IMG/VR virus record: IMGVR_UViG_3300042867_000366
Span: 1-39,091 of that record
DNA: 39,091 nt
From: a virus
Reading direction: 5' to 3' (one strand)
A program made the translations under genes and the position numbers. Of this stretch, positions 128 through 7,979 are shown in pieces (within the stretch, counting starts at the first letter, position 1; every line of letters starts with the position of its first letter). The notes under the pieces are model-generated. The model was not told the DNA's origin. It ran no database searches and worked only from the letters and a program-made list of their open reading frames with translations.

Positions 128-414
128 TTAACTGTCTTAGTAAAACAACCATCGAAGTGAACGTCATCGTGGCTATCCATATACCTTGTAGTACTGATTA
201 TAGGATAGATATAGTTCTCCTTAGTGGCGAATCCTATGCCCTTAGTAGCTTCCTTAGTGTTGTGTGACTTACCAATCGTAGTAGACTTATCACAACCCTT
301 GTATACGTTAGCCGTCTTGAACTCAATGATGTCCATCTCGGAATCCTTCAATGCCTTAAACAACTCCTCTTTGGAAGTGAACGTGCGTGATGGGAAATAG
401 TGTGACTTAATCAT
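1..414 (-). CDS. Prohead serine protease, N-terminal part (gene continues at the right end)
   Basis: Capsid maturation protease that would cleave the capsid scaffold or delta region during head assembly. The ATG is at 414 and the frame runs off base 1 straight into the ORF that ends at 38551, because of the terminal repeat; the joined protein is 275 aa. Around residues 76-108 the protein reads like HK97-type (S78/U35) proteases: a short strand, the DSHDDVHFDG segment (like D..GD...pGAF), then VYYCADHN with His108 as the candidate catalytic histidine. The candidate serine, S230, lies in the other part. It sits between portal and major capsid protein, the usual place for this gene. Function is inferred from motifs and order. 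Confidence 0.85.
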   Translation of the reverse strand, partial: MIKSHYFPSRTFTSKEELFKALKDSEMDIIEFKTANVYKGCDKSTTIGKSHNTKEATKGIGFATKENYIYPIISTTRYMDSHDDVHFDGCFTKTVKEQQGKVYYCADHNLSLSGIIASKKNVEMMVEPVDWSIVGKEY

Positions 415-426
415 TTTAATATCGTT

Positions 427-1908
427 TTATGCTCCTTGAGTGCTTTGAGTTTGAGTTCCGTTAGACGTTTGATTTCCTGTAACTGTTGCTTCGTTAGTGG
501 CTGTTCCGCTACCTTGCGTTGTTGTGTTGTTTGTTCCATTGCTTGTGTTGTTAAAGAACTCAGGATAGTCTTGTCTTATCTGCCACGCATACATATCGCT
601 ATATGGCTCTGATACTTCGTGATATCCTATACTTACTAAGAATTGGTTATAAGTAATACCATTAGAGTTGAACTCCAATGTCGCTGCTTCGATGTTTAAC
701 TTCCTTACCTCTGCTCTTGCCTTGATGTCATCTTGTAAGGCTGCAACGTGGTCGAAACAAGTCACATACTCAACACCATTGATGTCACCATACAAACACT
801 CGTTAAACTGAGTATCCATATTCTTACTCTCAGGGATGATGAAGTTCTGATACAATGTCTTACCTGCACTCGCACCATTGGTAAACGTAGTACCCTTATC
901 CTTACCAAACAAGTCAAACGGATAACCCATACCATCGCATAGGATGGCAGCGTTAGCGGTTCGTAACTCAACCATCTGCAACTCACTAACTGGATACATC
1001 ATATGTTCCCACTTCAACGTAGCATCCGTGATGATAGTATCTTCTTGCCCATCACTTGTACCATAAGACTTGAACGCACGATGTAACTCTCTACGTTCCT
1101 TGCTACCAATCGGTAACGTACTGATGGTATCTCTTGCTTGATTCGCTAAGATACCCAATGGTTTAGAGATGATACGACCTTCCGTCTTGTATGACTTGAT
1201 GATGTTGTTGATAGGGAACTGCAACGATGATACCCTTGAGCAAGGTAGGTAACTATTATCTCTTAGAGGTGTTGTGTCCGTGAAGATGTATACGTCCTCC
1301 TTCTTGATGGTGTACTTTACGTTATCTCTACGCAAGGTAACCGATTCAATGAGGTTGCTGATGTTATCCGTGTACATCATATTACCCTTCTTGAACTTAA
1401 TCTCCGTTGAGTGTGGAGGAAGTACCCATAGTGCGCTTATCTCAGTACCAAACTCATATCCTTCAGGTATGATACGCAAGACAGGACAATAACCGAATGC
1501 CATTATGTAGAACTTCAACTGCGCCCTAAACGCTTCTCCATTCTGCAATACATTAGGATGTTCCATCAACGTCTGCCAACGCTTATCTTGACCTTTAACC
1601 TTGTTGCGTGTTGACTTAGATAACACTTCTACGATACCATTAACGTATGCGTTAGACTTGCTATGTAAGATTGCTCCGATCTGAGGACAATCCGTAACCG
1701 CTTTAATAATTTCTTGGTCTGATGATACGCTGAAGATGTTATCCGTAAGGTTCATATAGTCAGGGAAACTAAATTCGCCTGGTCTTATACCCTCATCCAA
1801 TCTTCCGTAGAACGGAGACAATCCTGTAACTCTCTTTAATGCAGAATCACCTCCAAATATTGAAGGTACTATACTCCTAATCTTTGTTAACAAACTAGAC
1901 TTAGCCAA
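427..1908 (-). CDS. Phage portal protein
   Basis: 493 aa. It would form the dodecameric ring at one capsid vertex through which DNA enters and leaves and to which terminase docks. Length fits portals. The body shows portal-like features: an alternating alpha/beta N-terminal half, and a central segment with LGILANQARDT and a glycine-rich FTNGASAGKTLYQNF stretch before a long C-terminal helix. The tail from about residue 455 is low complexity, rich in N, T, Q, G and S, with no visible domain. It lies between terminase and protease genes, 12 nt upstream of the protease start, the canonical head-module order. A promoter (2005..2033) and a structured leader precede it. The assignment rests on context plus overall resemblance to portals of Bacteroidota phages. 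Confidence 0.85.
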   Translation of the reverse strand: MAKSSLLTKIRSIVPSIFGGDSALKRVTGLSPFYGRLDEGIRPGEFSFPDYMNLTDNIFSVSSDQEIIKAVTDCPQIGAILHSKSNAYVNGIVEVLSKSTRNKVKGQDKRWQTLMEHPNVLQNGEAFRAQLKFYIMAFGYCPVLRIIPEGYEFGTEISALWVLPPHSTEIKFKKGNMMYTDNISNLIESVTLRRDNVKYTIKKEDVYIFTDTTPLRDNSYLPCSRVSSLQFPINNIIKSYKTEGRIISKPLGILANQARDTISTLPIGSKERRELHRAFKSYGTSDGQEDTIITDATLKWEHMMYPVSELQMVELRTANAAILCDGMGYPFDLFGKDKGTTFTNGASAGKTLYQNFIIPESKNMDTQFNECLYGDINGVEYVTCFDHVAALQDDIKARAEVRKLNIEAATLEFNSNGITYNQFLVSIGYHEVSEPYSDMYAWQIRQDYPEFFNNTSNGTNNTTTQGSGTATNEATVTGNQTSNGTQTQSTQGA

Positions 1909-1920
1909 CCTTTTCGTTTG

Positions 1921-1995
1921 AACCTATATTCCTCGTGGCTGATTTACATCGCTACTTTGCGGATATAGGCTGGTTAATTTCTATGAGTTCGTCTC
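1921..1995 (-). promoter_or_regulatory. Structured 5' leader of the portal gene
   Basis: Between the promoter at 2005..2033 and the portal start the transcript can fold. A small hairpin (ATGAG/CTCAT, 1981..1995) is followed by a longer stem in which CCTATAT (1963..1969) pairs with ATATAGG (1923..1929). The loop of about 33 nt contains a further CGC/GCG pairing. No ORF fills the space. This could be a translational control element or simply an RNA-stabilising leader; I do not recognise a known riboswitch. Confidence 0.4.
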
Positions 1996-2004
1996 ATTTC
2001 TTTG

Positions 2005-2033
2005 CAAATATACGAAATATTTACGTCAACAAA
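2005..2033 (-). promoter_or_regulatory. Bacteroidota-type promoter for portal and downstream head genes
   Basis: The minus strand reads TTTG, 17 nt, TATATTTGC. The -7 element matches the TAnnTTTG consensus of Bacteroidota with the extra C. The spacing to TTTG is slightly shorter than the usual 19-21, so the -33 element is less certain. It lies about 100 nt upstream of the portal start. Confidence 0.55.
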
Positions 2034-2041
2034 TCTTTTTT

Positions 2042-2236
2042 CTACAATATTGAAAAAATATAATAGAAACATACAAGTATTAACGATAATATCGCTAACC
2101 CTGCCATTACATCTACCTTTGGTTCATCTATGTGCATATTCTTACGTTTATTATAGTTTTTAATTTGATGATTAACCCAATATTTATTTTCCTTTGTAAA
2201 ATATTTATCAGGGAATAGTTTATTATTCTTATTCAT
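2042..2236 (-). CDS. Small protein with C-terminal membrane helix
   Basis: 64 aa, unknown function. The first 42 residues are Lys/Asn rich and basic. Residues 43-64 form one hydrophobic helix (VMAGLAILSLILVCFYYIFSIL) reaching the C terminus, a tail-anchored layout. It follows a 45-aa ORF by 2 nt and lies between terminase and portal. Many phages carry small non-structural genes here, so no role is claimed. Confidence 0.6.
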   Translation of the reverse strand: MNKNNKLFPDKYFTKENKYWVNHQIKNYNKRKNMHIDEPKVDVMAGLAILSLILVCFYYIFSIL

Positions 2237-2238
2237 AA

Positions 2239-2376
2239 TTAATCTTTTTCTTCCTTACCGATAGTTAACTCATTAGTTAACTTATTATACTCAAACTCCT
2301 TCACTTCACGCTTCCCTTCACTACTGACGTAGTAACACTTCATCTCACCATTCGGTGCTTCTTCTATTGTATACAT
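2239..2376 (-). CDS. Small hypothetical protein (45 aa)
   Basis: A 45-aa ORF beginning MYTIEEAPNGEMKCYYV and ending GKEEKD, with stop TAA 2 nt before the start of the next gene. It is short but well packed: it begins 26 nt after the terminase stop and has a typical charged soluble composition (several beta-like stretches, acidic and basic residues alternating). A possible -7 element lies just upstream. Function unknown. Confidence 0.55.
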   Translation of the reverse strand: MYTIEEAPNGEMKCYYVSSEGKREVKEFEYNKLTNELTIGKEEKD

Positions 2377-2380
2377 CTGT

Positions 2381-2411
2381 CAAAGATACATCAAACTTCC
2401 ATTAGAACCAA
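2381..2411 (-). promoter_or_regulatory. Possible weak promoter at the end of the large terminase gene
   Basis: The minus strand shows TTG, 20 nt, TATCTTTG, matching TAnnTTTG with acceptable spacing, 5 nt before the 45-aa ORF start. It overlaps the last codons of the terminase gene, so the match may be fortuitous. Confidence 0.3.
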
Positions 2412-4540
2412 TATCCGTGTACTTGGATCATATATCTAACCGTATCTATGCAGTTATGGACTAAAACTCCATTAGCAAAATATTCGTGTTCTTCTTCAAT
2501 CATTAAATCGTATACATTATCAAAATATTTTTCTCCTTGCTCTAAGCGCACGAGCCTTGCAGTTTTGATGGCAGTATTTTGTAATTCCTGTTGTTCTTGA
2601 AGTATATTCTTTACCGCATTGATGACAGTTGTATTTTTTATATTCTGCTTTATCCCAAGCCATTTTGCCAATCTTCCTATGAAAATCAAGTCCTGCTTCT
2701 GTGCCGTGCCATTTGTTTGCAAACTCTCTGGCATAATCCATTCTTGCCCTAAGTTCTTCTTTATCCCTTGATGACATATGTTGAGATAAATGTTTACTCG
2801 CTTCAATACATTCCAAATTGGATATATCATTATTTTGCTGATTACCATCAATATGATGTATGTGATAACCTTTAGGTATTTTGCCATTAAAGAATTGCCA
2901 AACTTCAGTATGCAGTCTTTTACAACCTTTTGAAAAATACTTCTCTCCCTTGTACAAGTAGTATGTTTTTCCATCAAATACTTGGTAAGGTATAGTTCCA
3001 TCCCCTGCTTCAATGACGCAATCTCTACCCATCCTGTTGATGTCTTTATCTTGTGGTTGTGTGTGCATATAACTTCTGTTTTAGTGTTATCCTCAAAGAT
3101 AAGACTATACTTGCATACCTCCTTGCATCCATTATAAAACTTATGCACAACTTGATGCCATCCGCTACTTGTCAGTACTAAGTCACCTTGCACCATACTT
3201 CGTATTGGCATCAAACCATAAGGTGTTGTAATTAGTGTACTACCTACGAAACAATGGTTATGAGCATCAATAGGCTTACCACTTGGCTTACCATCCTTGT
3301 CCACCGCCCATACATACTGCGAGAACTCAGCAATCAAGTTTGGTGAGTCACTCGTAACGTGAATCTTCATACTTAGTAGCTTATCTATACCACCCTTGAT
3401 ACTCTTGTTAGGTGCAGGTCTCATATTCCTAAACCCAAGTGATGCGTTAGGATACCTCTCCCTATCTTCCTCACTCAAGTACTTGGCTATACCAAACCGC
3501 AACTCACGGATGGTATCAGGCTCGGCACAGTCAGCTACGATAAGTGTGTCTTCCAACATACCCAAGTCATTCAACTTCTTACCCAACTCTACCAACGCAA
3601 GTGGCTCGTAGTTCAACTCCTTTAGGTAAACGTGGTCTCCTTTCACCTTCATCCATACAGTTGCCGCAGGACTGGCAGTACCGAAGTCTTGCCCATAGCA
3701 CTCGGCATAGTCCAACTCCGCAAACTCTTCAGGTGTGATGATGTCATAGTTCTTGAATATCTGACCCTTCAACCCTGTTGTAGAGTAACCCTTGATACTC
3801 GTCAAGTAGTGATGTAGGTTATACAAGTGCGACTCAGAGTCTCCATAGGCTTCATACTGCCGAACGGTCTTATCAGGTAGGAACGTGTTATCCTTGTAGT
3901 TACATTGTATCGTTACCAATCCGTGTACATCCTTCGGCACAAGCTTGAAGTACCCACTTCGTTCCGTATCCGTCAACTGAGGTTCATCCTCTTCGGTAAT
4001 CGGTATAGCGTTGAAGTACCTACGCACGATCCAATGGTAGATGTCAGGTGTGTTCATAATGAAGATGATGTACGAACCACGCTTCCTGATACTGTCGCTG
4101 AACGTATTGAACTTATCCTCATCTCTTATATCTTCGCCCTCCTCTATACACGCTATGTCTACGTTCGATACCGACTTCATATTCGCCTTCTTATCTAACG
4201 TACTCGCCCTAAACCCCTTAGTGAACACCGCCATCTCGCCAGTCTTGTTGTTCTTGATACCATTCTCCAACCTTGAGAACTGCTTATCCAACACCGACTG
4301 CTTGTTAGCCGTATCCCATCTAAGTAGTACCTCGTTCAAGATACTCTCCTTGATACCTTCCTTCTCATCACGCAACACTTGACAACGCTTACCCTTGATA
4401 GCTGCGGAATAGGCTATAAACTTCGACACTTCATAAGTCTTACCGCCACCACGACCACCGATACAAACTACTATCTCGGTATCTTCAGCTAACTCATACA
4501 AAGGTGCAAACTTGGGAGTTCTCTTAACTATTACGTCCAT
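2402..4540 (-). CDS. terL: Terminase large subunit, interrupted by an intein
   Basis: 712-aa precursor: N-extein 1-429, intein 430-696, C-extein 697-712; the spliced product would be 445 aa, normal for TerL. The packaging ATPase has Walker A GGRGGGKT (28-35), Walker B DIACIEE (128-134) and the coupling segment NTPD (about 163). The RNase H-like nuclease has acidic motifs in YGQDFG (about 288) and VADCAEPD (about 335). The third nuclease motif, which reads DAHNH then CIDTVRY after removal of the intein, is split by it. Splicing is therefore expected to be needed for an active nuclease. It translocates DNA into the prohead and cuts it. Small terminase lies upstream across a non-coding spacer. 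The start is the first ATG, 5 nt from a TACATTTG element. Confidence 0.93.
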   Translation of the reverse strand: MDVIVKRTPKFAPLYELAEDTEIVVCIGGRGGGKTYEVSKFIAYSAAIKGKRCQVLRDEKEGIKESILNEVLLRWDTANKQSVLDKQFSRLENGIKNNKTGEMAVFTKGFRASTLDKKANMKSVSNVDIACIEEGEDIRDEDKFNTFSDSIRKRGSYIIFIMNTPDIYHWIVRRYFNAIPITEEDEPQLTDTERSGYFKLVPKDVHGLVTIQCNYKDNTFLPDKTVRQYEAYGDSESHLYNLHHYLTSIKGYSTTGLKGQIFKNYDIITPEEFAELDYAECYGQDFGTASPAATVWMKVKGDHVYLKELNYEPLALVELGKKLNDLGMLEDTLIVADCAEPDTIRELRFGIAKYLSEEDRERYPNASLGFRNMRPAPNKSIKGGIDKLLSMKIHVTSDSPNLIAEFSQYVWAVDKDGKPSGKPIDAHNHCFVGSTLITTPYGLMPIRSMVQGDLVLTSSGWHQVVHKFYNGCKEVCKYSLIFEDNTKTEVICTHNHKIKTSTGWVEIASLKQGMELYLTKYLMEKHTTCTRERSIFQKVVKDCILKFGNSLMAKYLKVITYIILMVISKIMIYPIWNVLKRVNIYLNICHQGIKKNLGQEWIMPESLQTNGTAQKQDLIFIGRLAKWLGIKQNIKNTTVINAVKNILQEQQELQNTAIKTARLVRLEQGEKYFDNVYDLMIEEEHEYFANGVLVHNCIDTVRYMIQVHGYWF
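2453..3253 (-). other. Intein in the large terminase (267 aa)
   Basis: Protein-splicing element starting at Cys (codon 3251-3253) and ending HN before Cys+1 (2450-2452). Block A reads CFVGSTLITTPYG. Block B reads CTHNHKIKTSTGW with the expected Thr-x-x-His type residues. Block F reads VYDLMIEEEHEYFANG and block G VLVHN followed by Cys. All splicing residues are present, so the element should be active. The segment between blocks B and F is about 165 codons. In the intein frame it is an Ile/Lys/Asn/Gln-rich sequence with no recognisable endonuclease, because that DNA encodes an HNH protein in another frame. Confidence 0.93.
2520..3068 (-). CDS. HNH homing endonuclease nested out of frame inside the TerL intein
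   Basis: 182 aa, in the -1 frame relative to the intein. The HNH core runs about residues 50-86: a KRLHTEVW helix, the GYHIHHIDGN motif with catalytic histidines around 69-72, then NNDISNLE. A C-terminal zinc ribbon uses a CHQC pair and a later C..NC pair and ends in a basic tail (KARALRARR). Such enzymes nick or cut intein-less alleles and so spread the element. The ATG at 3068 lies inside the block B codons and the stop at 2520 falls at block F, so the gene fills exactly the intein linker. An A-rich stretch precedes the ATG, fitting independent initiation; a -1 frameshift fusion to the intein is an alternative. The first 25 residues may not belong to the domain; Met13 is another possible start. 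Confidence 0.9.
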   Translation of the reverse strand: MHTQPQDKDINRMGRDCVIEAGDGTIPYQVFDGKTYYLYKGEKYFSKGCKRLHTEVWQFFNGKIPKGYHIHHIDGNQQNNDISNLECIEASKHLSQHMSSRDKEELRARMDYAREFANKWHGTEAGLDFHRKIGKMAWDKAEYKKYNCHQCGKEYTSRTTGITKYCHQNCKARALRARRKIF

Positions 4541-4937
4541 ATTGCAAATGTACTATGTTATGTTGTTATGTTGTTATGTTATGGTAACAAGGTTATGTAT
4601 GGTATGGGTATGCTAAACATATTACGTTTTTTTATATATGTTCAAAATTTAGCATAAAAAGTAGGATAGGGGGATACCCCCACCCTCTTTTTCTTTTTAC
4701 GTTGAACTTTTGCTTATCCTAAATCAGTATCCATTCGTCCTATAATATTTATTATGTTAAATAGCATTTTGACCTATGCGTTTATCGTAATAGTATTACT
4801 ATCATTCGTGATAGTACAACCACTCCCCCACCCCACTCTATGCTATGATATCGCTATGTTTAAGGCAGTTTCAAATATTATATTCTAATTCCTTAAGGTA
4901 GTTTAGAGTAGTTATTTATATAGGTATATTAATACCT
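4541..4937. other. Non-coding, structured spacer between the terminase genes
   Basis: About 400 nt without a credible gene. It holds a TATGTTGT-like micro-repeat (4556..4585), a GC-rich palindrome GGGGG/CCCCC around ATA (4669..4681) in otherwise AT-rich DNA, a 13-nt palindrome GTAATA-g-TATTAC (4787..4799), and an overlapping hairpin with an 8-bp stem and TTCG loop (4797..4816). There is also a C-rich run near 4822..4838. Its position between small and large terminase makes it a candidate packaging (cos or pac) region, but this is inference. Confidence 0.5.
4545..4552 (-). promoter_or_regulatory. Possible -7 element immediately upstream of terL
   Basis: The minus strand reads TACATTTGC, matching TAnnTTTG plus C, ending only 4 nt before the terL ATG. 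No -33 TTTG is found at a normal distance. If used, it would give an almost leaderless mRNA, so confidence is low. Confidence 0.3.
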
Positions 4938-5276
4938 TTATTCAAAGGATATATTTTCAATCACTACGTTTGCGTTCACGTCAACCTGTGATCTGGTCAA
5001 CTTCGGCTTATAGTACTCTATGATCGCATTGAAAGCTACTATCTTATCACGTGGACCTAACTGATTCATTGCTTCCATATAGTCCTCAACTCCCTTTGTA
5101 GTTAGCCACTCACCGAATTTTTCCCAACTACTTAGCCCTACCTTTTCGAGTACCTTAGTTTTGTGATGCTTAGTACCCTTTGCCTTGCTTATTCGTACCG
5201 CAGCCATACGTTCGCTAGGGTTACTACTTTTGATATTCGGCACTACCTTAGCCTTATGTGTTACTTCTTTCTTCAT
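4938..5276 (-). CDS. terS: Terminase small subunit-like protein
   Basis: 112 aa. Small terminases recognise the packaging site on phage DNA and hand it to TerL. The N-terminal 40 residues are Lys rich and basic. A helical centre follows (SSWEKFGEWLTTKGVEDYMEAM, then a DKIVAFNAIIEYYKPKLTRSQ helix), and the C terminus ends in a short strand. The YKPKLTR segment near the end resembles the EYxxPKL motif common at the end of small terminases in Bacteroidota phages. It lies directly upstream of terL across the structured spacer. Function is inferred from this motif and the position. Confidence 0.7.
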   Translation of the reverse strand: MKKEVTHKAKVVPNIKSSNPSERMAAVRISKAKGTKHHKTKVLEKVGLSSWEKFGEWLTTKGVEDYMEAMNQLGPRDKIVAFNAIIEYYKPKLTRSQVDVNANVVIENISFE

Positions 5277-5296
5277 ATTGAATTACACTGATTTCA

Positions 5297-5339
5297 CAAA
5301 GTTAGCCACATATTCACATAAAAGTTAGACTAATCTAAC
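5297..5339 (-). promoter_or_regulatory. Promoter/operator region of the small terminase
   Basis: The minus strand has TAACTTTG (5297..5304), a match to the -7 element TAnnTTTG, 21 nt before the terS start. An upstream palindrome GTTAGA-ctaa-TCTAAC (5324..5339) lies where a -33 box would be, and no TTTG is present there. The palindrome may therefore be an activator or repressor site. Confidence 0.4.
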
Positions 5340-5387
5340 ATATTACTTATAACACATTGATATTCAACTATTTACATTCGTATGTAT

Positions 5388-5419
5388 ATACCTTGATATA
5401 TTGTATTGCAATACCTTGA
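5388..5419. promoter_or_regulatory. Palindrome flanked by direct repeats
   Basis: A perfect 12-bp palindrome GTATTGCAATAC (5404..5415) is flanked by two copies of ATACCTTGA (5388..5396 and 5411..5419, start-to-start 23 bp). It lies in the gap between the accessory-gene terminator and terS. It looks like a protein binding site; its role is unknown. Confidence 0.35.
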
Positions 5420-5443
5420 CTTATACCGATTGCATATACGCAT

Positions 5444-5469
5444 AAAAAAAGCACCTAATTAAAGGTGCT
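5444..5469 (-). terminator. Rho-independent terminator of the 7.2-5.5 kb operon
   Basis: On the minus strand a stem AGCACCT, loop TTAATT, stem AGGTGCT runs into seven T residues. It lies 25 nt beyond the stop of the last small gene (5494). This is the clearest intrinsic terminator in the window. Confidence 0.85.
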
Positions 5470-5493
5470 AAGTAGTTGAAGGTATATGTATCC

Positions 5494-5592
5494 TTAACCT
5501 AATAGAGCGATTAAATAAGCCCCACAATAAAGAATAAAAGCATACATTAGAACCTGTACTGTAATGATACCGTATATTAAGAGTTTACGCAT
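5494..5592 (-). CDS. Tiny single-helix membrane peptide, copy 1
   Basis: 32 aa: MRKLLIYGII start, then a hydrophobic helix through FILYCGAYLIALLG to the end. It is clearly related to the 34-aa peptide at 18859..18963; both share M(R/K)KLLIY.II..QV.M..FI.YCG.Y.IA. Two divergent copies with the same pattern argue that this is a real gene despite its size. It overlaps the upstream gene by 8 nt and is the last gene before a strong terminator. Expected to insert in the inner membrane; function unknown. Confidence 0.7.
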   Translation of the reverse strand: MRKLLIYGIITVQVLMYAFILYCGAYLIALLG

Positions 5593-5851
5593 TGTTATGT
5601 TCGTTTGAGATTATTGCTGTAGCTGCATCGTAACGTAATGAATAACCTTTGCAATAACTGTAATCTTTATCGTTACTCTTTAAGTATTTACGTCCTTCGC
5701 TTAATGCCTTAACGGCTTCACGCTTAGTTTTAAAAGTTAGAGTAACGCTGTTGAACATTCCTCTAGTTTCTTCGCAGTTATAATCTTTAATAACTGAGCG
5801 GAGCATAAAGATGCTGTTTAATTGTCCTGTGATTATTATTTTTGTTTGCAT
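5585..5851 (-). CDS. Hypothetical protein (88 aa)
   Basis: Unknown small soluble protein, beginning MQTKIIITGQLNSIFMLRSV and containing a segment with VTLTFKTKREAVKALSEG, which suggests a beta-alpha fold with an amphipathic helix. It is preceded by an A-rich leader ending ACACAATG. It lies in an accessory operon of short genes transcribed 7171 to 5494, probably early functions acting on the host. Confidence 0.6.
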   Translation of the reverse strand: MQTKIIITGQLNSIFMLRSVIKDYNCEETRGMFNSVTLTFKTKREAVKALSEGRKYLKSNDKDYSYCKGYSLRYDAATAIISNEHNNA

Positions 5852-5888
5852 TGTGTTTATGGCTGTAAAGTTAGCCTTACTTTTGTTT

Positions 5889-6200
5889 TTAGAATCTTTT
5901 TAAAATTACGTTTGCAATATCATTTTTTAAATTTCGCATTTCACCGAATACAGAACTATTATAGTCGTATACGTGATATCCTTTATAAAATGTTGGGTAA
6001 ATTTCAGCAATACTTTTGCCATAGTCACACGGATATGCTGAATCTATTTTATTTACTTCTTTATCCTCCATTTGTAGAATACCTGTGCAAATGTCTCTCA
6101 TAGTACTTTTACCGTTTTTAATATCTATTATGTGGCTGAATAACTCTATTAATTCAGGCTGTAAATTCATATACTCGTTTATTTCGTTTATTGTTTGCAT
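5889..6200 (-). CDS. Hypothetical protein (103 aa)
   Basis: Unknown. The N-terminal half is helical (ELIELFSHIIDIKNGKS). The C-terminal half has aromatic-rich segments (IYPTFYKGYHVYDY). No signal peptide or membrane helix. The start follows the leader AAAAACAAATAACA and lies 2 nt after the upstream stop, consistent with co-transcription. No family recognised. Confidence 0.6.
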   Translation of the reverse strand: MQTINEINEYMNLQPELIELFSHIIDIKNGKSTMRDICTGILQMEDKEVNKIDSAYPCDYGKSIAEIYPTFYKGYHVYDYNSSVFGEMRNLKNDIANVILKRF

Positions 6201-6202
6201 TG

Positions 6203-6400
6203 TTATTTGTTTTTATTGTTTATTAATAAGTTCAAAAAATATTCTCTTACTTGTAAATTCGTAACTGGTGCTGTAAATATATGATGGTCCAAACAGACTC
6301 GACCTTCGTATACTTTTGCCATCTGAATGAAGCCGTCTGTAGTGTGTTTGATAGGCGATATCGTGACATGATAAGTTCCAAATAATTTTAGTCTTTTCAT
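6203..6400 (-). CDS. Hypothetical protein (65 aa)
   Basis: Unknown short protein with alternating beta-like segments (GTYHVTISPIKHTTDGFIQMAKVYEG) and a helical C terminus (VREYFLNLLINNKNK). It is packed 2 nt from each neighbour in the accessory operon. No motif identified. Confidence 0.55.
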   Translation of the reverse strand: MKRLKLFGTYHVTISPIKHTTDGFIQMAKVYEGRVCLDHHIFTAPVTNLQVREYFLNLLINNKNK

Positions 6401-6402
6401 TG

Positions 6403-6786
6403 TTAGATAGAGTTTTGAAGTTCGTTAATAATAGCCTTCAAGTCTTCCTCGTCTAAGCGATTATTCAACTTGCTTTGTAACGTATTAGATACGCTTAGTA
6501 CCTCTTCGCCTAGAATATAGACTGCCATATTAACTACCTTTTCAGCACTTGAAAAGTCTGTCATCACTTCGCCAAAATTTGATTCTTCGTACTCTTTGAT
6601 TAAGTCTATGTTGTAAAATGTACCTCCGTTATTTAGTAACCATTGCTCAGCATAGTAATACCCAATTATGTAGTAGTCTGAGTTAAAAATTTCGTGGTGC
6701 AAGTCGAAACCATAACAAGACGGTTGACAATCTTTGATGTGGTCAATTGCGAAGTTTACTAGTTCGGTTTGTGTAGTGTGTTTCAT
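6403..6786 (-). CDS. Hypothetical protein (127 aa)
   Basis: Unknown acidic, mostly helical protein. The sequence resembles small phage proteins with an N-terminal helix (TELVNFAIDHIKDCQPSCYGFDLHHEIF) and a central aromatic stretch (YYIIGYYYAEQWLLNNG). This pattern is shared by uncharacterised proteins of many phages that seem to monitor a substrate or inhibit a host factor; no function is claimed. It sits in a tight operon. Confidence 0.6.
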   Translation of the reverse strand: MKHTTQTELVNFAIDHIKDCQPSCYGFDLHHEIFNSDYYIIGYYYAEQWLLNNGGTFYNIDLIKEYEESNFGEVMTDFSSAEKVVNMAVYILGEEVLSVSNTLQSKLNNRLDEEDLKAIINELQNSI

Positions 6787-6788
6787 TT

Positions 6789-7004
6789 TTATTTGTTTTT
6801 AGTGTTTAAGTGAAATTTGCAGATACTGTCGCATTTGTAAGACGCATTAAGGCATTGTTTACCGTTCGTTTTTATAGCCTTGCAACGTAATGGTGCGGTG
6901 ACCTTGTTACATTGTTTAAAGGATACTGGCTTCGAACTTGCTACTATGCTACATAGTAGAATGATGATGATGATGACGATTGAATAGTCTTTTTTGTTTG
7001 TCAT
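6789..7004 (-). CDS. Membrane-anchored small protein with Cys/His motif
   Basis: 71 aa. Residues 8-24 form a strongly hydrophobic N-terminal segment (IVIIIIILLCSIVASS). It is followed by a motif RCKAIKTNGKQC...C..HL, which matches the small CKAxTKxGxxCxxxA...CxxH pattern (DUF5763-like) that probably binds zinc. The protein could be anchored or exported. It is second in the accessory operon. Confidence 0.6.
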   Translation of the reverse strand: MTNKKDYSIVIIIIILLCSIVASSKPVSFKQCNKVTAPLRCKAIKTNGKQCLNASYKCDSICKFHLNTKNK

Positions 7005-7024
7005 TGTGTTAGTTTTATTTGTTA

Positions 7025-7171
7025 TTAATTATTTTTTGTGCAAATTGTTACAAGAAAGAAAGCGAAAGATACTACCAATAAAGAAGGATTGATGCTAACC
7101 GCTGCACCCATTGTAAATACTGTCATAACTGATGATGAAAGGAAGATAATTTTGTTTAATTTGTTTGTCAT
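7025..7171 (-). CDS. Small membrane protein (48 aa), first gene of the operon
   Basis: 48 aa, start MTNKLNKIIFLSSSVMTVFT, then a second hydrophobic stretch SLLVVSFAFFLVTIC ending TKNN. Two membrane segments are predicted, so it is probably an inner-membrane protein. Its start codon context is the same as that of its neighbours (ATGACAAACAA). Function unknown. Confidence 0.55.
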   Translation of the reverse strand: MTNKLNKIIFLSSSVMTVFTMGAAVSINPSLLVVSFAFFLVTICTKNN

Positions 7172-7340
7172 TGTGTTTTAGTTTTTTTTCTTAGCGGAAT
7201 TGCTTTGATAGTGCAATACTACTATGCTAAGTAATACAATGTACACTATTCGTATCTCATTAACATCACAATAACAAATGCATATATTTAAGCTATTGTA
7301 AAACAGATACTATATACATACTTACTACTATCTACTAAAG
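7172..7340. promoter_or_regulatory. Divergent promoter region
   Basis: This gap separates the minus-strand accessory operon from the only plus-strand gene, so it must contain promoters facing both ways. For the minus strand only near-matches to TAnnTTTG are visible (for example TAGTATTG around 7223..7230). Short repeated ACTACTAT-like words occur on both sides. I cannot place the minus promoter firmly. Confidence 0.35.
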
Positions 7341-7348
7341 TACATTTG
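7341..7348 (+). promoter_or_regulatory. -7 promoter element for the plus-strand gene
   Basis: TACATTTG matches TAnnTTTG and lies 9 nt upstream of the ATG at 7358. No TTTG or TTG sits at -33, so an activator may be needed. If this promoter is used, the earlier ATG at 7346 is not transcribed, which decides the start at 7358. Confidence 0.45.
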
Positions 7349-7357
7349 TATTCAAGT

Positions 7358-7570
7358 ATGGCGAAATATAAAACAGAGAGCAAACGAATGAATATCGAAA
7401 TTCCGATTTCACACATTGACCAGGTGAAAAAATTAGTACACGATTATTTAAGTATGGAGGGATTGGCTGTTAAGCCATCAAGACATAAAGATATAAAGCC
7501 TGTTAACTGTTACCTGAGTAATGGATCTAGCTTACTTTGCCCTCACTGTGAAAATGAGATTGAATTGTAG
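7358..7570 (+). CDS. Only plus-strand gene: small RHH-like protein with C-terminal zinc-type motif
   Basis: 70 aa from the ATG at 7358. The N-terminal part (KRMNIEIPISHIDQVKKLVHDYLSMEG) has the strand-helix layout of ribbon-helix-helix DNA-binding proteins. The C terminus holds a CPHC pair that may be half of a metal site. It is divergent from the accessory operon and convergent with the replication operon, a typical position for a regulator, so a transcriptional repressor or switch is a fair guess but unproven. A short repeat array follows its stop. Confidence 0.6.
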   Translation: MAKYKTESKRMNIEIPISHIDQVKKLVHDYLSMEGLAVKPSRHKDIKPVNCYLSNGSSLLCPHCENEIEL

Positions 7571-7583
7571 TTACCTACACACA

Positions 7584-7739
7584 TTGCTCTTTGTATTGCT
7601 CTTTCTGAAATATTGCTCTTTGTGAAATTGCTCTTTTAAGGCTCTAAATATCTTTCTAAGGTTATCTATTGCTCTTTGGTAGAAGTTGTCTTAAATCGCC
7701 TTTAAATGCTCTTTACGATGCTCTTTAGAGTTGCTCTCT
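7584..7739. repeat. Array of TTGCTCTTT repeats
   Basis: Five exact TTGCTCTTT copies (7584, 7596, 7613, 7628, 7669), two with A for the first T (about 7706 and 7718) and one TTGCTCTCT (7731), plus a partial GCTCT near 7642. Spacings of 12-17 bp are common. It lies just 3' of the plus-strand gene in a gap without ORFs. It may be a protein binding array, or in RNA form (AAAGAGCAA on the minus transcript) a sponge or processing element. Confidence 0.75.
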
Positions 7740-7794
7740 GATATTACATCTCAAGTCTTTCGTTTTTAGTGGTTAGTTAGTGTTTAGAATGAGA

Positions 7795-7820
7795 AATGCC
7801 CCAACTATTATTGGGGCATT
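7795..7820. terminator. Bidirectional hairpin between convergent transcription units
   Basis: Perfect 10-bp stem AATGCCCCAA / TTGGGGCATT with 6-nt loop. It lies between the plus-strand gene and the end of the minus-strand replication operon, so it can stop transcripts from both sides. Downstream T content is modest on either strand, so termination efficiency is uncertain. Confidence 0.65.
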
Positions 7821-7853
7821 CTTGTATAGATCATCGAACTGCTTATTTGACTA

Positions 7854-7979
7854 TTTTCACTTTGTGTAGAACTGGAGATTATAGATTTTGAGAATTTTCA
7901 CTTTTTTCACTTTTTGTGTATAGAATATTATTCCTGCCGATTTTCACTTTTTTCACTTTTTTCACTTTTTTCACTTTTT
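7854..7979. repeat. Array of 9-bp TTTTTTCAC repeats
   Basis: Four TTTCAC units in exact 9-nt register at 7943..7979, two more at 7895..7910 and one at 7854..7860. Two of the runs end in CACTTT(TT)GTGTA. The minus strand reads GTGAAAAAA repeatedly. Together with the TTGCTCTTT array it fills the 446-nt gap 7571..8016, which otherwise contains no gene. Confidence 0.75.

Follow-up and report, generated by a model that had tools for sequence, protein, structure and literature searches.

The terminase gene and its intein

The window (the whole 39,091-nt stretch of viral DNA analysed here) carries a terminase large subunit (TerL) precursor ORF, the intein host, on its minus strand. The ORF runs from 4540 to 2402 as a single uninterrupted frame of 712 aa and was matched by Pfam Terminase_3 (E=6e-21), by phrog_2 (terminase) and, below cut-off, by TIGR01547. 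The N-extein (3254..4540, minus strand, as are all features of the window given below; 429 aa) closes with ...PIDAHNH, within motif III of the nuclease domain. It is followed by an intein of 267 aa or 801 nt (2453..3253), from C1 at 3253 to the terminal HN, with Asn267 ending at 2453. The C-extein (2402..2452) consists of CIDTVRYMIQVHGYWF and the stop codon. Three close relatives (L004, L005 and L011) have the same TerL minus exactly the 801-nt block, the junction reading ...AHNHC(I/L)D..., and the element is therefore an insertion that has been gained and lost. Intein blocks A, B, F and G, named in the initial annotation, are present, and the ends it gave were confirmed by these empty alleles.

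The Hint-N half (2978..3253, residues 1-92) contains blocks A and B and the Hint-C half (2453..2575, residues 227-267) blocks F and G. Both were modelled by AlphaFold (intein alignment A3) with a pLDDT of about 95. The intervening linker (2576..2977, residues 93-226) was modelled with low confidence; in the TerL frame it is stop-free and neutral. The catalytic residues are C1, T64/H67 (block B TxxH), His266-Asn267 and a +1 Cys. When the model was searched using Foldseek, 41 PDB chains were matched at E<=0.001, the best being the gp41-1 intein (E=5e-8). Pfam Intein_splicing (2e-7) and Hint_2 (7e-6) matched the insert slightly under their curated cut-offs, and the NCBIfam intein_Cterm score exceeded its cut-off. 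By its residues, its Hint fold and its in-frame insertion the insert meets the criteria for a class-1 intein; splicing activity itself is inferred, with indirect support from purifying selection on both Hint halves. A group I intron was ruled out, the TerL frame being open throughout and no Rfam family matching positions 1900-4700 at E<=1; nor was an RNA intron matched by Rfam at the HNH of nine relatives.

The HNH gene in the -1 frame

In the -1 frame relative to TerL, the minus strand is open from 3068 to 2520, and the third frame carries 21 stops across the HNH gene. The initial annotation had placed a complete zinc-ribbon HNH protein here with its start at 3068. The protein was upheld and the start was not: the ATG at 3068 is missing from most relatives, and the conserved start is the inner ATG (3032..3030) of GGATGG (3029..3034), which supplies the block-B Gly-Trp codons of the TerL frame. 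From this start the ORF (2520..3032) encodes 170 aa followed by a stop; the extension of 12 codons up to the upstream ATG (3033..3068) probably does not begin at the main start.

The -1 frame was matched by Pfam HNH_3 (PF13392, E=8e-16). His60, Asn68, Asn72, His81 and four Cys are invariant across 44 aligned sequences, and the AlphaFold model (alignment A2) had a pLDDT of 89. Searched against PDB sequences, the HNH profile gave I-HmuI (1u3e, E=1.6e-4) as its sole match; a Foldseek search of the model against PDB returned nothing significant, with I-HmuI again the best (E=0.06). Judged on its sequence, the protein qualifies as a putative member of the HNH_3/I-HmuI-like, homing-type family, and site-specific cutting of an empty allele is inferred.

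When the synonymous HNH codons of the window were permuted, a mean of 4.5 stops fell in the intein frame and the probability of an open frame was P=0.00015 (P=0.001 using TerL codon usage). The earlier observation of two open frames and a closed third was thus borne out, and openness of the intein frame by chance was ruled out by these permutations together with the stop counts across lineages given below. A canonical intein with an in-frame endonuclease domain was also ruled out for the window, the HNH lying in the -1 frame and the linker being of low model confidence and neutral; the initial annotation was right that the linker holds no in-frame nuclease.

Occurrence of the nested layout

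An alignment of 35 HNHs (A1) was searched against genome and viral contigs, plus phage records, and the HNH places found were scored using HMMs for HNH, Hint-N and Hint-C. Among 256 scored places, 173 had the HNH nested within an uninterrupted Hint ORF but in another frame, 26 were split, with an ORF for each Hint half and the HNH between them, and 47 were free-standing without Hint; a few had one Hint half only, and in one the HNH was in frame with Hint-N. Lineages were defined by clustering at 80% HNH identity with an HNH score over 100, which gave 115 nested, 22 split and 18 free-standing lineages. Most loci are metagenomic contigs, and the HNH search patterns were biased toward the KYCHQNCK-type zinc ribbon. 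In the viral-contig scan made with the HNH, all 80 loci had the HNH out of frame within a longer open host ORF.

The initial annotation had suggested that related terminase inteins be searched for the same overlap, which was found in these 115 lineages, three annotated phage genomes among them: Tetrasphaera phage TJE1, Acinetobacter phage Highwayman and Rhodobacteraceae phage LS06-2018-MD07, where the host ORF is annotated merely as terminase large subunit. Genome-contig record titles with the layout include Bacteroides, Prevotella, Patescibacteria, Byssovorax, Actinomycetes and Nitrospiraceae, and among Archaea Nitrosotalea and Thermoplasmatales. Judged by a simple pattern of the flanks, the insertion lies at motif III of the TerL nuclease domain in all split lineages and in about three quarters of the nested ones. 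The first residue is Cys in 134/134 lineages, the last is Asn in 131/136 and the +1 residue is Cys, Ser or Thr in 130/136. Recurrence of one layout in 115 lineages marks it as a real and largely unnoticed way to build a mobile intein.

To avoid recovering only what an HNH query recovers, viral contigs were also scanned with a degenerate DNA pattern for the intein C-terminal motif HEYFANG. Among the matches listed, 97 inteins had Hint-N detectable in the same ORF, near-duplicates being kept in the counts. An out-of-frame HNH was present in 88 of the 97, the other 9 were mini-inteins of 111-147 aa, and none had an in-frame endonuclease detectable with the HNH profile or a LAGLIDADG expression, the only two means used.

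Relatives with the HNH in frame, or with the intein frame broken, had been named beforehand as observations that would refute the nested reading. An HNH in frame was found only in an unrelated intein, that of a ribonucleotide reductase (RNR) by inspection. Frame-broken relatives do exist, but these are split inteins that keep both Hint halves.

Several single loci may be recorded here. The one clear in-frame relative is the RNR-intein HNH at 1144-1384 of L174, an Armatimonadetes contig. The 1458-aa ORF 408-4781 of a Nitrosotalea contig (L138, JAHEYD010000005.1) has an in-frame LAGLIDADG_3 match followed by a separate Hint with an out-of-frame HNH, so that both architectures occur in one gene. 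Two out-of-frame HNHs are nested in ORF 1331-4732 of L163 and two in ORF 1-2832 of L208, where Pfam gave one and two intein matches, respectively.

Constraint on the two frames

Stops in the host frame were counted against permutations of synonymous HNH codons. None was present in the +1 class (103 lineages; 260 expected) or in the +2 class (12 lineages; 127 expected), which makes 0 against about 387 for the 115 nested lineages combined. The same frame showed no avoidance in the 18 free-standing HNHs (144 stops, 149 expected) and held 164 stops in the 22 split lineages (168 expected). Since an open host frame was itself the criterion for calling a lineage nested, the fair comparison is that of all 137 Hint-flanked lineages, in which the host frame is open in 115 or 116 against about 8.5 expected.

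For related pairs, observed over expected amino-acid changes were 0.59 and 0.44 in the HNH frame and 0.97 and 1.06 in the host frame over the same linker DNA. This test includes a few near-duplicate pairs; the free-standing set had no close pairs and was excluded. Along the host frame, a reduced pair set gave ratios of 0.47 for the N-extein, 0.57 for Hint-N, 1.01 for the linker and 0.26 for Hint-C. Purifying selection acts on the HNH frame, on Hint-N and on Hint-C, and the linker is neutral in the intein frame, its sole detectable constraint being the absence of stop codons. From these ratios it follows that the splicing halves and the nuclease are conserved and that the linker peptide is free to change except to a stop. 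Both the codon-shuffle comparison and the two-frame selection test had been proposed in the initial annotation, and their outcome supports its inference that splicing and homing reside in different frames, with the linker a stop-free by-product of the HNH gene.

Proposed mechanism

What was observed directly is the layout, its conservation and the pattern of selection; splicing, HNH translation by internal initiation, cutting and homing are inferred. We consider it highly probable that the element is a mobile intein of phage terminases and that its homing endonuclease has a gene of its own, which overlaps the linker out of frame. Translation of the TerL frame would run straight through N-extein, Hint-N, unstructured linker, Hint-C and C-extein, and the class-1-type Hint domain would then splice itself out of TerL. 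The HNH-zinc-ribbon enzyme would be a second product of this message, its translation initiating internally at the conserved ATG that overlaps the block-B Gly-Trp. The enzyme would cut TerL alleles that lack the intein, at the conserved motif III of their nuclease domain, and repair would copy the intein in; this step is inferred from the HNH family, the empty alleles and the scattered distribution. Should a stop arise in the linker, the arrangement could persist in split form, the HNH gene then separating the two intein halves; the direction of this change is inferred as well.

The nested HNH might instead serve the terminase as a DNA-packaging cofactor, without homing. HNH proteins adjoining terminases are known packaging factors, according to work cited in PMC12613952, and the free-standing relatives of this HNH mostly adjoin TerL. 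Closely related phages (L004, L005 and L011) nevertheless do without the whole element, the domain is HNH_3/I-HmuI-like and of a homing-type family, and one relative lies inside the RNR intein, so that a packaging role appears very unlikely.

Slightly less credible still is the idea that only the HNH matters, which would make the insertion a read-through into a bulky, unspliced TerL with Hint-like ends as mere remnants. The published ShiLan domain, an HNH encoded out of frame within the methylase gene of an actinobacteriophage, is thought to act in this way, staying in the methylase product (Arsenault, Gosselin and Gogarten 2025, PMC11855218). Remnants, however, would not be expected to show the purifying selection measured on Hint-N and Hint-C, nearly invariant catalytic residues or a predicted Hint fold; the insert moreover interrupts a motif that is conserved in the nuclease domain of TerL, and the split versions have retained Hint-N as well as Hint-C.

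Initiation of HNH translation

The first HNH start codon overlaps a host-frame Trp codon in 71 of 103 +1-class lineages, and in many of these that codon is part of the block-B Gly-Trp (GGATGG in the window). The base preceding start-overlapping Trp codons is A in 72/95 against 29 expected from codon usage of the same ORF; for control Trp codons elsewhere in the N-extein the figures are 158 and 153. Anti-Shine-Dalgarno pairing of -5 kcal/mol or better was found at 41% of nested +1 starts, 44% of free starts and 73% of split starts, compared with about 19% of control ATGs. No Shine-Dalgarno signal above background was found in the +2 class (12 lineages) or at over half of the +1 starts, and initiation therefore remains unproven there.

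The initial annotation had allowed for internal initiation or -1 frameshifting, and the two fared differently. Programmed frameshifting would move ribosomes from TerL into the HNH frame and yield a TerL/Hint-N/HNH fusion, to which the +1 class lends itself, since its HNH occupies the -1 frame, which is open over a short distance (median 10 codons) ahead of the domain. Canonical slippery heptamers before the HNH domain, however, occur in 3% of lineages, equal to the 3% in control stretches; the second class, with its HNH in the other frame, would require the opposite shift; the HNH owns a conserved ATG, with A enriched before the TGG; and the fusion would not splice because it would lack Hint-C. 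Frameshifting is accordingly given about as little credence as an unspliced remnant. With no slippery-site enrichment, two frame classes and a conserved start codon, internal initiation is the best-supported route to the HNH, although its translation is inferred without expression data.

Assembly or sequencing indels masking an ordinary in-frame HNH intein, conceivable for a metagenomic virus record such as the window, can be set aside almost entirely: each of more than 100 lineages, annotated phage genomes included, would have to contain two compensating indels, which rules out assembly error, and stop avoidance and substitution patterns match two real frames.

Relation to known elements

Inteins are usually treated as one polypeptide that does both the splicing and the homing. 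Those with an in-frame HNH are known (Dalgaard et al. 1997, as cited in PMC8966425); they share with the window element a Hint domain and an HNH placed between blocks B and F, where intein endonucleases usually lie, and L174 is a relative of that kind. They differ in that the nuclease is part of the intein polypeptide, which it is not in the window.

The nearest precedents are the intein-less ShiLan element and the 'fractured' split inteins. Like the terminase element, ShiLan is an HNH gene with zinc-binding motifs inside a phage gene, in another frame, with both frames open and a patchy, homing-like distribution; internal (leaderless) initiation has been proposed for it (PMC11855218). It has no Hint or other splicing domain, whereas the terminase HNH overlaps a complete intein. 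When the window was considered as a ShiLan element, a complete HNH in another frame of an uninterrupted ORF was met, and the absence of a splicing domain was not. No actinobacteriophage methylase was among the matches listed in the HNH phage searches.

As for the 'fractured gene' split inteins, Dassa et al. reportedly described them in 2009 as having a free-standing endonuclease between the halves. The best structural match of the window intein, gp41-1, we take to be one of them. In both arrangements the endonuclease is a separate gene between the sequences of the two intein halves; the window differs in having a single continuous ORF overlapping the endonuclease gene, and its enzyme is HNH_3/I-HmuI-like. 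Halves in separate ORFs, which define the fractured genes, are not found in the window and are found in 22 related lineages, Vibrio phage 1.238.A for example.

TerL is a favoured intein host in mycobacteriophages as well. According to the available portion of Kelley et al. 2016 (PMC5050341), terminase inteins there lie in the TerL ATPase domain, whereas the nested inteins lie mostly at motif III of the nuclease domain; that portion does not describe an out-of-frame HNH. The HNH_3 nuclease core is shared with I-HmuI and with other intron-encoded and free-standing HNH homing endonucleases, although no group I intron or other Rfam family surrounds the window HNH.

Full-text literature searches turned up no intein described as containing an endonuclease gene in another frame; preprints and most subscription journals were outside the scope of these searches. 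A 2025 preprint by Gosselin is said to treat a 'non-canonical architecture' of actinobacteriophage inteins and, judged by its title, may overlap. The statement in the initial annotation that no such class had been described is nearly right, with ShiLan and split inteins with the endonuclease between their halves as close precedents that it missed. We place the element among mobile inteins as a new form, which is neither a canonical nuclease-bearing intein nor a ShiLan element.

A large intein family separates splicing and homing yet keeps both in the same DNA. Endonuclease and splicing domain can evolve without a common fold, the sole price being a stop-free second frame. The family also supplies many natural examples of overlapping genes in which one frame is constrained and the other nearly unconstrained, and one silent codon change would separate splicing from HNH function. 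Standard annotation conceals the nuclease within many terminase genes.

Origin and split forms

Long ORFs adjoining the free-standing HNH relatives matched terminase large subunits in 8/10 cases, and no Hint was detected in them. On its well-supported branches the HNH tree requires several changes of state, at least 4 for nested +1, 3 for nested +2, 2 for split and 5 for free. The tree is poorly resolved, with 72/155 branches open, and the number and direction of transitions among the free, nested and split states are therefore uncertain. A plausible series, its direction unproven, begins with a free-standing HNH beside TerL, passes through nesting within a TerL intein and ends with the HNH lying between the halves of a split intein; it would offer a route from free-standing homing genes through inteins to the split inteins used in biotechnology. 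On balance, but with considerable reserve, we favour the broader view that these elements form an undescribed and widespread class of mobile inteins with the endonuclease as an overlapping out-of-frame gene, an arrangement that would be standard for terminase HNH inteins, would have arisen more than once and in two frames from terminase-adjoining free HNHs, and would provide a route to split inteins.

In Vibrio phages 1.238.A and 1.245.O (L250 and L251), TerL ends in Hint-N and is followed first by an unannotated HNH ORF and then by a distinct 'hedgehog/hint domain protein' that carries Hint-C together with the C-extein of TerL. These are probably split inteins with the HNH between the halves, in annotated genomes. 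A free-standing HNH of the same family, also unannotated, lies at 2968-3486 between the terminase and portal genes of Brevundimonas phage Poludnitsa (L095). At 3758-7870 of a Quinella sp. sequence (L147), four consecutive ORFs without Hint gave weak HNH-profile matches (63-71 bits).
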